A DNA stretch of 39,426 nt from Verrucomicrobiaceae bacterium (GTDB taxonomy: Bacteria; Verrucomicrobiota; Verrucomicrobiia; Verrucomicrobiales; Verrucomicrobiaceae), in the NCBI GenBank assembly GCA_027486585.1, contig JAIXOU010000046.1, positions 1-39,426 of the forward strand. The letters are read 5' to 3'. A program made the translations under genes and the position numbers. Below are positions 30,748 through 34,771 of this stretch, in pieces (within the stretch, counting starts at the first letter, position 1; every line of letters begins with the position of its first letter). A model generated the notes under the pieces. The model did no database searches and was not told the origin of the DNA. It worked only from the letters and a program-made list of their open reading frames with translations.

Positions 30748-32652
30748 TTATTTAGCCTGGGCAAGCTGAGCCAGCACCTTTTCCACCGTAGCTTCGGCAG
30801 TAAGCCCGTGCTTTTTCCGGAGGATAGCAGGTGTGCCATGCTCGACAAAGGCATCTGGCCAGCCGACACGAACGACCGGAGTCGTGATGCCTGCGGTGCT
30901 GAGATGCTCGATCACTCCACAACCAAAGCCGTTCATGAGGATGTGATCTTCGAGGGTGCAGACGACCTTCACCTTTTTAGCGATGTCCTCAATCAGTGAG
31001 GCATCTAGGGGTTTGATCCAGCGTGGATTAATCAGGGCTACGGAGAGACCTTTGGCCTCCAGCAGCTTCTTGGCTGCCTCGGCTGTCGTGAACATGTCGC
31101 CCAGGCCGATGAGTGCCACGTCGGTGCCATCTGAAATAAGTTCGCCTTTGCCGATCTCTAAAAGTCTCGGATTGGCTTTGGGTGTTACTCCGGGGCCATT
31201 GCCACGAGGGTAACGGATAGCTATTGGGCCTTTTTCATAGTTGGCCATGGTCCAAAGCATATCGACAAATTCATCTTCATCTTTTGGCTGCATATGGACG
31301 AGTCCAGGAATGCCGCGTAGGTAGGCGATGTCAAAAAGACCATGATGGGTCGGGCCGTCATCACCACTGAGACCACCGCGGTCCATGCAAAGACGCACAG
31401 GCAGATGCTGAATGGCCATGTCGTGGATGATCATATCGATCGCTCTCTGCATGAAGGTCGAATAAATCGTCAAGAAAGGACGCAGGCCCTGCACAGCGAG
31501 ACCGCAGGCAAAGAGAGCTGCATGTTCCTCTGCAATTCCGACATCAAAGTAACGCTCAGGAATTTCTTTCTTAAAGCACATCAAGCCAGTGCCGCCGGGC
31601 ATGGCCGCCGTGATTGCGACGATCTTTTTATCTTCTTTGGCAAAGTCCGTGACTGTGCGCGCAAAGACCTGGCTGTAGGTCGGCTTATCCGTGGACTGAG
31701 TTTCACCAGTCTCAATGTTGTATTTTCCAAGCCCGTGGAACTTGCTTGGATCTTCCAGCGCAGGTTTGTAGCCACGTCCTTTTTCGGTAAGGATGTGTAA
31801 GATAACAGGCTCATTTTGAGTCTTCAAAAACTCAAAGGTCTGGATGAGCAAAGGCAAATCATGCCCATCAATAGGCCCATAGTAACGGATGCCAAACTCC
31901 TCGAAAAGTGTGCTGCGATTATGCGGCCCTTCACTTTGTGGTAGGAGCAGGCCTTTGGCACTGTTTTCCACGCGTTCAGCCAGCTTCCGCGCACCGTCGC
32001 CGAGCATGAACTCGACAAATTTGGACGCTTTTTCATGTAGATTGGCAAAGCCGGGGTGAGTTGCGATGCTGTTGAAATACTTTGCGATCGCTCCGACGTT
32101 TTTGTCAATGCTCCACTCGTTGTCATTCAGCACGGTGATCAATCGCTTCGTGTGCGCAGCGATGTTATTCAATGCTTCAAAAACAGGGCCGCAAGTGAAA
32201 GCCGCATCACCTGAAACACAGACGACATGGTCATCTGTGCCTTTTAAATCACGCGCAGTTGCCATGCCCAGAGCAGCGCTCAGAGCGGTACCTGCATGAC
32301 CAGCGCCATAGCAGTCATGCTCACTTTCACTGCGCAGTAGGAAACCATTGAGACCTTCGTATTGGCGGATGGTGTGGATTTTATCCCAGCGGCCTGTCAG
32401 CATTTTGTGAACATAGCCCTGATGCGCGACATCAAAGACAAATTTGTCATTCGGCGTGTCAAACACGCGATGCATGGCGATGGTCAACTCCACAACCCCA
32501 AGGTTGGGTCCGAGATGTCCTCCGGTCTCACTTAAGGTTTCGATGAGGGTGGCACGGATCTTTTCTGCAAGTGCAGGCAGTTGCTCTAAAGGCAGAGCTT
32601 TGAGATCAGTCGGGCTGGTGATGGTAGGCAGGGTAGTGTCCACGAGGTTCAA
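30748..32652 (-). CDS. dxs: 1-deoxy-D-xylulose-5-phosphate synthase
   Basis: Dxs of about 634 residues, condensing pyruvate and glyceraldehyde 3-phosphate with thiamine diphosphate, first step of the MEP isoprenoid pathway. Motifs: TGGHLGPNLGVVELT (first His), DVAHQGYVHKMLTGR, GAGHAGTALSAALG, NDNEWSIDKNVGA, GIAEEHAALFACGLA with catalytic Glu, and DRGGLSGDDGPTHHG. Two residues differ from textbook Dxs: GDA in place of GDG in the thiamine-diphosphate motif (VSGDAAFTCGPVFEALNN), and a small residue in GAGHAGT. No ATG lies near the start: the frame begins with TTG at 32652, overlapping the xseB stop as TTGA; GTG at 32643 is an alternative. xseB and dxs are coupled. Confidence 0.94.
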   Translation of the reverse strand: MNLVDTTLPTITSPTDLKALPLEQLPALAEKIRATLIETLSETGGHLGPNLGVVELTIAMHRVFDTPNDKFVFDVAHQGYVHKMLTGRWDKIHTIRQYEGLNGFLLRSESEHDCYGAGHAGTALSAALGMATARDLKGTDDHVVCVSGDAAFTCGPVFEALNNIAAHTKRLITVLNDNEWSIDKNVGAIAKYFNSIATHPGFANLHEKASKFVEFMLGDGARKLAERVENSAKGLLLPQSEGPHNRSTLFEEFGIRYYGPIDGHDLPLLIQTFEFLKTQNEPVILHILTEKGRGYKPALEDPSKFHGLGKYNIETGETQSTDKPTYSQVFARTVTDFAKEDKKIVAITAAMPGGTGLMCFKKEIPERYFDVGIAEEHAALFACGLAVQGLRPFLTIYSTFMQRAIDMIIHDMAIQHLPVRLCMDRGGLSGDDGPTHHGLFDIAYLRGIPGLVHMQPKDEDEFVDMLWTMANYEKGPIAIRYPRGNGPGVTPKANPRLLEIGKGELISDGTDVALIGLGDMFTTAEAAKKLLEAKGLSVALINPRWIKPLDASLIEDIAKKVKVVCTLEDHILMNGFGCGVIEHLSTAGITTPVVRVGWPDAFVEHGTPAILRKKHGLTAEATVEKVLAQLAQAK

Positions 32653-32996
32653 AAAAGTCGGATGTCGTCGCTGGCTTCCTCAGCGTCAGGCTTTGCCGTG
32701 CGTCGGCGTGTGGTGGCTGCAGGCTTTGCTGTATTTTCCACAGAAGTCTCTGCTGCGCGGGTTGGGTCAAAGGCGGCCAGTTCAGCTTTACCATCAGCCC
32801 CGAGGCTGATCGTCTCGATCCGCTGTCTGGCAGTATCGATCCTACGGCGACAAAGTTGCAGCAGTTTCATGCCCTCTTCGTAGCTGGTAACCATCTCATC
32901 CAGAGGCATTCGGTCGGATTCCATCGCAGCCACGATTTCCTCTAGGCGGTCCATGGCCTGCTCAAAGGATGTTTCGGTGGGAGTGGAAGAATTCAT
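32649..32996 (-). CDS. xseB: Exodeoxyribonuclease VII small subunit
   Basis: XseB, 115 residues, small subunit of the exonuclease VII that degrades single-stranded DNA together with XseA. The core (residues about 8-70) is the typical coiled-coil hairpin: SFEQAMDRLEEIVAAMESDRMPLDEMVTSYEEGMKLLQLCRRRIDTARQRIE. A tail of about 40 residues is added (AAETSVENTAKPAATTRRRTAKPDAEEASDDIRLF), rich in Ala, Thr, Arg, which most XseB proteins lack. The xseA gene is not in the window. The stop overlaps the dxs TTG start. It is divergent from rsfS. Confidence 0.92.
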   Translation of the reverse strand: MNSSTPTETSFEQAMDRLEEIVAAMESDRMPLDEMVTSYEEGMKLLQLCRRRIDTARQRIETISLGADGKAELAAFDPTRAAETSVENTAKPAATTRRRTAKPDAEEASDDIRLF

Positions 32997-33123: not shown

Positions 33124-33600
33124 ATGGAAGCTATCGAGACCGCCCGCCTTTGTGCCAATTATGCTGATGACAAGAAGGCCGAGTCCATTGTGGTGCTCGA
33201 CTTGCGCGGGCTATCCCCCGTCAGCGACTTCTTCGTCATCTGCACCGCCAACTCCAACCCGCAGCTCCGCGCCGTGCGGGATGAGGTCGTGGAACAAATG
33301 CGCATCAAGCACAATTTGAAGCCGCTTTTCAGTGATGGCACCTACGAGAGCCAATGGCTGATCATTAATTTTCCGAACGTTTTGGTTCACATCCTTTCCC
33401 CTGAGAAACGCGAATTTTACGCCTTAGAAGAACTTTGGGGTGATGCCCCCGAGATCACTTGGGAGCCTGTGATCGAAGTGCAAGCACCGGTCAAAAAGCC
33501 AGCTGCCGCCAAAAAAGCAGCTGCTAAAAAGGTGACCACAAAGAAAGTCGCGGCTAAAAAAGCGGTGGTAAAAAAAAGCCCCCGCAAAGAAGGCAGCTAA
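33124..33600 (+). CDS. rsfS: Ribosomal silencing factor RsfS with a basic Lys/Ala-rich tail
   Basis: RsfS (Iojap/DUF143), 158 residues. The core (residues 1-114; LCANYADDKKAESIVVLDLRGLSPVSDFFVICTANSNPQLRAVRDEV ... DGTYESQWLIINFPNVLVHILSPEKREFYALEELWGDAP) binds ribosomal protein uL14 and blocks subunit joining. The start at 33124 matches the family. Unlike usual RsfS proteins of about 110-120 residues, residues 122-158 form a K/A repeat resembling histone H1 tails (AAKKAAAKK, VAAKKAVVKK). At an A8 run (33570-33577) the frame ends SPRKEGS; a one-base shift would read KKAPAKKAAKK and stop at 33607. The tail is probably a nucleic-acid-binding extension; frame choice is uncertain. Confidence 0.93.
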   Translation: MEAIETARLCANYADDKKAESIVVLDLRGLSPVSDFFVICTANSNPQLRAVRDEVVEQMRIKHNLKPLFSDGTYESQWLIINFPNVLVHILSPEKREFYALEELWGDAPEITWEPVIEVQAPVKKPAAAKKAAAKKVTTKKVAAKKAVVKKSPRKEGS

Positions 33601-33614
33601 GAAATAAATCACTA

Positions 33615-33647
33615 CACCTCTGCCAGCTCAGAGAGTTGGCAGAGGTG
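33615..33647. terminator. Bidirectional hairpin terminator between rsfS and the binding-protein gene
   Basis: CACCTCTGCCA (33615-33625) pairs with TGGCAGAGGTG (33637-33647); the loop can extend pairing (CTC/GAG). It lies just after rsfS, and the stop codon of the facing minus-strand gene (33628-33630) is inside it. The minus-strand tail is T-rich (TAGTGATTTATTTC). Confidence 0.72.
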
Positions 33648-34623
33648 GTGGACCCTCGCGCAGCATTTGATCGGCATTGCTCGCTGTAATTGCCGTGGGT
33701 GCCACACGATAGGAGGCCTGCGGGATGAAGCTTGGCTCATCCATCTTTTTCGTGATGAAGTTCCAGGCTAAATCGACCAGGATCGGCAGAAACACCGTCG
33801 CATCTAGGTCACCCTTATTGACCAGGGAAAGCCCACCGTCCACGCCGACGTAGCCACCTGTGCCGATGACCATCATGTTTGCACGAGTTTCACCCAGCCC
33901 GATAACAGCACCAAGGGCCATGGCATCATTCTGGGCATAAACCACATCAAAAGTCGTCTGTAGCCGCAGGGCATCCATAGCTCGTGATTTACCGCCGTCC
34001 TTGGTCCAGGCACCTGGAGCATCATGAACTAAAATTACCCCAGGTGCCGTTTTGAGGGACTCCATGAAACCTTCGTGCATCACCTGACTTGTCGCGTTCT
34101 CGTCCTCTCCACGGATTTCTACCACTCGACCGACGACATCGACGCGACCTTCGGCCAAAGCTTTTCTTTTGAGCGCCTTCACTGTTAGATCGCCAGCCAG
34201 CCGCCCAGCCTCACGCAGATCCGTCGCTACTGCTGTCGTGCAGGGCAGGGACATCGCCGACTCTCCAATTCCGACGACCACCACGCCCATTTGCACAGCA
34301 GCTGCCACCTGATCAGAAATTCGCGATGCATCCACCGGACTGATCGCAAGGGCGAATGGCTTTTCTGCCATGGCTAAACCAAACTGTTCAGCCTGTAGAG
34401 ATGCATCACCTTTAGCGTCATGATGGATAAAATTGACCTTGTCTCGGAATCCGACCATGCGCTGAAAGTTCTGCACCTGAGTTAGCTCATAAGGCCTGGC
34501 CATATCAGCGGAAAGAAAAACCACGGTGCGAATGGAGGTCCTTGGATCTGCCTCAGGACGTTTACAGCCCGTAAACAGCGCAAGGAGCGAAAGCGCAAAA
34601 AGAATCTGTGAAAAGCGAATCAT
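33628..34623 (-). CDS. Periplasmic sugar-type substrate-binding lipoprotein, orphan
   Basis: A 331-residue solute-binding protein of the Peripla_BP_4/LacI-like type. The Met at 34623 opens a signal sequence with a clear lipobox LFTGC (Cys20), so it is a lipoprotein; the frame upstream lacks a signal. Two Rossmann-like lobes are visible: VVFLSADMARPYEL...ALAISPVDASRISDQVAAAVQMGVVVVGIG, and VVEIRGEDENATSQVMHEGFMESLKTAPGVILVHDAPGAWTKDGGKSRAMDALR...VVYAQNDAMALGAVIGLGE. Sugars or small autoinducers are usual ligands. No permease or ATPase of a sugar ABC transporter is adjacent, so it may serve a transporter elsewhere or a sensor kinase. It ends in a proline-rich tail and overlaps its terminator. 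Confidence 0.88.
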   Translation of the reverse strand: MIRFSQILFALSLLALFTGCKRPEADPRTSIRTVVFLSADMARPYELTQVQNFQRMVGFRDKVNFIHHDAKGDASLQAEQFGLAMAEKPFALAISPVDASRISDQVAAAVQMGVVVVGIGESAMSLPCTTAVATDLREAGRLAGDLTVKALKRKALAEGRVDVVGRVVEIRGEDENATSQVMHEGFMESLKTAPGVILVHDAPGAWTKDGGKSRAMDALRLQTTFDVVYAQNDAMALGAVIGLGETRANMMVIGTGGYVGVDGGLSLVNKGDLDATVFLPILVDLAWNFITKKMDEPSFIPQASYRVAPTAITASNADQMLREGPPPLPTL

Positions 34624-34771
34624 GGTCAGGCGAGATGAAGCCATGAAACCAGCGTTATCACAAGCTTCCAATTGCATCTTCTTGTGAAGAATCTGCCATT
34701 ACTTTGATGAGTTCTGGATGTCTGAGCCTTGCACACCGCCCATCCTGCGCCAGAATGCGCGCCCTATTCCC

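Follow-up and report, generated by a model that had tools for sequence, protein, structure and literature searches.

Does the run of eight adenines (A8) near the 3' end of rsfS in the window, that is, the whole stretch of 39,426 nucleotides analysed here, serve to make two protein tails, or does it mark a frame shifted by one base, either in the organism or in the assembly? The gene encodes a ribosome silencing factor that ends in a tail rich in lysine and alanine (K/A), and it is within this tail that the run divides the K/A pattern between two reading frames. We looked at the gene itself, at its counterparts in the genus, family and phylum, and at the other indels and homopolymers of the same genome.

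The rsfS gene and its two reading frames

The coding sequence was read from ATG 33124, since this start was picked by homology; the upstream start of the mechanically called open reading frame (ORF), ATG 32953, falls within an ORF of the opposite strand (32649-32996). The encoded protein matches TIGR00090 with 101 bits (cut-off 56.9; profile positions 3-99 of 99) and PF02410 with 97.1 bits (cut-off 21.6; profile positions 3-98 of 98). Over both curated cut-offs, its core is, on the evidence of these profiles, a sound ribosome silencing factor domain, and it has the whole core domain in common with the RsfS / iojap / YbeB proteins. According to PMC7125091, RsfS from Staphylococcus aureus binds uL14 and blocks subunit joining, and its docking cavity is formed by uL14, bL19 and helix 95 of the 23S rRNA.

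Translation from ATG 33124 (frame 0) yields ...AAKKAVVKKSPRKEGS, followed by the stop TAA 33598-33600, with the A8 run read in the codons GTA AAA AAA AGC and the protein terminating in SPRKEGS. Frame +1 reads KKAPAKKAAKK and maintains the K/A pattern up to TAA 33605-33607. An earlier, sequence-only reading of this DNA had placed the run at 33570-33577 and had given these same two ends, SPRKEGS and KKAPAKKAAKK, all of which is borne out. The features are collected in Table 1.

Table 1. Features of the rsfS locus, in positions of the window.
Feature	Position	Strand	Remarks
rsfS coding sequence as present	33124..33600	+	158 aa; ATG 33124 picked by homology
RsfS domain	33151..33438	+	PF02410 positions 3-98
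K/A-rich C-terminal tail	33445..33597	+	51 aa in frame 0, net charge +10
A8 run	33570..33577	+	One A longer than in the nearest relative compared (G040, A7)
Out-of-pattern end SPRKEGS, stop TAA 33598-33600	33577..33600	+	Frame 0
APAKKAAKK, stop TAA 33605-33607	33578..33607	+	Frame +1, ancestral by comparison; stop equals that of the relative

Beyond the gene, an inverted repeat, CCTCTGCCA / TGGCAGAGG (33617-33625 and 33637-33645, letters verified), sits where rsfS and ORF 33628-34677 converge. Read by eye, it is possibly a terminator shared by the two.

The K/A frame is that of the relatives

A genus search covering 48 genomes matched rsfS in 45, with three drafts (G033, G038 and G050) giving no match. 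The nearest genome compared, G040, encodes an RsfS core protein identical to that of the window, and its alignment with the window, 38,184 columns long, has 97.0% identity and contains 15 indels. The tail of G040 has A7 and reads ...VVKKAPAKKAAKE, with the in-frame end KKAPAKKAAKE and a TAA stop that corresponds to TAA 33605-33607 of frame +1 in the window. The K/A match of frame +1 is thus not due to chance, because this relative reads KKAPAKKAAKE there in frame; and, since A7 goes together with an intact in-frame tail in G040, the A8 of the window has one added base with respect to its nearest relative. The insertion point is nine sense codons upstream of the ancestral stop, and the window protein has 158 residues versus 160.

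All 45 RsfS proteins of the genus have K/A-rich tails and, by eye, only that of the window leaves the pattern, the other 44 being K-rich in frame to a few residues before the stop, with last residues that vary from tail to tail (e.g. KKKAD, RRKDG, KKSV). One further genome, G015, whose core is 97% identical, likewise has A8, but in frame (AAA AAA ACT, read as KKT). Alignment of related rsfS genes had been proposed in the sequence-only reading as the way to find the conserved C-terminus, and the one common to relatives proves to be the K/A frame and not SPRKEGS; among the options put forward there, that of a single-base change that recently shifted the frame is the best supported, the nearest relative having A7 and an intact tail. 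As judged from these alignments, the A8 of the window is a one-base insertion in a single genome, or a lone assembly error.

The explanation that we consider likely is that of an ordinary RsfS with a lineage-specific, low-complexity K/A tail, in which replication slippage in A7 added one A that is tolerated. In such a scenario, an A7 run like that of G040 would have gained the additional base through slippage at DNA replication, and the resulting shift, with nine sense codons left to the ancestral stop, would have produced the SPRKEGS end and a protein two residues shorter.

Genuine indel or assembly error

The main alternative is that the eighth A arose by error, whether in assembly, in sequencing or through a mixture of strains, and that the true gene has A7 and an intact K/A tail. 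We regard this as rather unlikely, albeit by no means negligible, since the difference consists of one homopolymer base, the genome is a draft in 147 contigs, and G040 has A7. To weigh it, we surveyed the indels between the window genome and G040 in three pairs of contigs, which align over 136,786 bases at 94-97% identity, using ORFs of at least 100 amino acids called mechanically from the earliest possible start, some of which are perhaps not genes. Within the long ORFs of either genome, 14 indels are not a multiple of three, with the following distribution. First, four of them are two neighbouring pairs by which the frame is restored. Second, eight are no more than about 140 bases away from the start of an ORF as called mechanically. 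Third, two are close to the 3' end, namely, the rsfS A8, 31 bases before its ORF ends, and C51:17623, at a distance of 6 bases. Deep within long ORFs, the 136,786 bases aligned to G040 showed no frame-changing indel without a partner, which is as expected of real, tolerated changes and speaks against error.

The homopolymers point in the same direction, with one exception. Only three of the 419 runs of at least five bases in long ORFs differ from G040 in length alone, while 59 differ by substitution, and the three comprise, besides the rsfS run at window 33570, one at window 28680, which is 28 bases from an ORF start, and one at C51:75974, which lies within a stop codon. Outside ORFs, length differs in seven of 62 homopolymers. 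The exception concerns the longest runs: two of the 14 with at least seven bases in long ORFs differ in length from G040, namely, the rsfS A8 and the one in a stop codon, and this favours the error reading. Given the few differences in homopolymer length and the lack of deep unpaired indels, the assembly is therefore not riddled with homopolymer errors, and the comparison with G040 makes an error-ridden assembly unlikely. The rsfS indel, nine codons before the stop, is by the same comparison located where real indels survive.

Slippage on the A run

The sequence-only reading had also proposed that the run slips in transcription or translation and so makes two tails. That RNA polymerase slippage, or a ribosomal -1 shift on A AAA AAA, yields two C-termini that are both used seems to us very improbable, even though A runs are prone to slip and PMC1088944 describes eight As as suggested to be productive in IS elements of Deinococcus and Nostoc, as well as a human gene that contains a run of eight As and in which about a tenth of the product is restored. 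As in the A-run slippage genes covered by that report (Thermus dnaX with A9, IS elements), the run of the window is in the 3' part of the gene. Moreover, the -1 frame of G040 gives SPSKEGS, nearly the SPRKEGS of frame 0 in the window, and that of G015 ends nearby, in SSKEDC. These similar ends are due to shared codons, although they leave a small door for slippage.

Against this, and unlike the slippage genes of PMC1088944, neither the length and position of the run nor a second product, whose conservation would mark programmed transcriptional slippage, is conserved among the 45 tails of the genus. Runs of at least seven As are present in only 13 of the 45, in varied codons and phases, and alternative frames outside the nearest three genomes lead to varied, unrelated ends. 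Nor are the runs enriched: when synonymous codons were shuffled within each tail, 15 runs of at least seven As were observed versus 19.1 expected (sd 3.6), and two of at least eight versus 6.0 (sd 2.3), which is, if anything, low. In the window, a ribosomal -1 shift would lead to PPQRRQLRN... and not to the K/A frame, which requires the net loss of one A or the gain of two. With regard to transcription in E. coli, PMC5574713 reports that less than 1% of deletions began in uninterrupted homopolymers, and that single insertions cluster in homopolymer runs and increase with run length. As far as PMC1088944 goes, selection becomes evident at nine nucleotides in a large proportion of genomes, a threshold that refers to selection against A/T runs. 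Programmed slippage was rejected on three grounds: how the run is conserved, how it compares with shuffles of synonymous codons, and where the alternative frames end. An even slimmer chance attaches to a reversible switch, in which A7 and A8 alleles would both slip on A AAA AAA to give K/A and SPxKEGS C-termini that tune the hold of RsfS on ribosome or RNA, a scheme open for the small clade because the -1 end of G040 is nearly identical to the frame-0 end of the window.

Distribution of the tail

Returning to the preferred reading, an ordinary RsfS whose tail is proper to its lineage, we determined how far such tails extend. In the genus, the 45 tails are 40-82 residues long (median 53), with mean fractions of 0.32 for K+R and 0.29 for A, and it is by this addition that the genus differs from typical RsfS / iojap / YbeB proteins. 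Beyond it, rsfS was present in 64 of 68 genomes in a family search and in 141 of 144 in a phylum sample, from which tails were read in 70 of the 141 rsfS genomes, plus G000 and G012. By the simple criterion of a tail of at least 24 residues with at least 25% K+R and at least 13% A, 68 of 132 RsfS counted have one: the family of the window contributes 53 of its 63, another family of the same class (f5) 12 of 14, and family f19 three of four, the latter being basic extensions of 30 residues and of a different kind. The same rule found none in all remaining families counted (0 of 51). Except in one further family of the class, most of the RsfS proteins sampled from other parts of the phylum have no K/A tail.

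A quickly built RsfS tree with 128 rows, weak in that it rests on about 100 residues, requires at least seven changes of the tail trait. Family distribution and repeated changes together indicate that it is lineage-specific and has been gained or lost repeatedly. The K/A tail, which the sequence-only reading had noted as an addition to the usual length of RsfS, is by these comparisons real, but it is not peculiar to the window genome, and its uniqueness is rejected, as it is found in all genus RsfS recovered and also beyond the genus. Among the literature matches listed for RsfS/YbeB/iojap, lysine-rich tails and Prosthecobacter, none describes a K/A tail on RsfS.

Two tails of other make-up were also seen. 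The RsfS tail of L024 (G044) is a near-perfect KAKAAP repeat, the pattern of its relatives being AAKK, and that of L145 (G145, phylum family f30) consists of 138 residues and is strongly acidic, D/E-rich.

Charge, composition and possible function of the tail

Throughout the genus the tails keep their positive charge while their sequence varies: the net charge is +10 in the window and +11 in G040, within a genus range of +7 to +21, and the last 20 residues carry +7 in both, at the low end of the genus (7-11). The charge of the last 20 residues agrees with tolerance of the frameshift, without being a test of it. Since the net charge of the tail changes by one only, the frameshift is probably near-neutral; it would have been tolerated if, as it seems, the tail is kept for bulk positive charge rather than for its exact sequence.

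The comparison with histone H1 made in the sequence-only reading holds for composition and fails for family membership, which we reject, as the tail scores 18.4 bits with HC2 (cut-off 40) and 21 bits with NF038053 (cut-off 80), far under both cut-offs. Degenerate lysine-rich repeats on a protein that acts on nucleic acids are also found in the C-terminal domain of actinobacterial TopA and in mycobacterial HupB, and those of Streptomyces TopA are reported to stabilise the enzyme on DNA (PMC7398561). The RsfS tail differs from the repeats covered there in being appended to a ribosome factor, and the likeness is one of composition without membership.

In line with its charge, the tail may be a disordered, electrostatic anchor for rRNA binding: flexible and of about +10, it could touch rRNA near the site of RsfS on the large subunit and so raise affinity. 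The frameshift itself, probably a neutral indel, is of little consequence, and a K/A-tailed RsfS is of modest interest, in that the factor which, following the account for S. aureus in PMC7125091, docks at uL14, bL19 and helix 95 bears, in two families of the phylum, a tail that is strongly basic and changes fast. Should this tail bind rRNA or DNA, the strength or the place of ribosome silencing could alter.

Other proteins of the same genome have parts of similar composition. A presumed Rho protein, located in L075 between about 1450 and the end of that locus (around 50400-52000 of G000 contig C1), starts with a long K/A-rich stretch, KKAAAKKAPAKKASPTKK..., of the same type as the RsfS tail. 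Two further short open frames of the window's genome, L179 and L181, have K/A-rich C-terminal parts.
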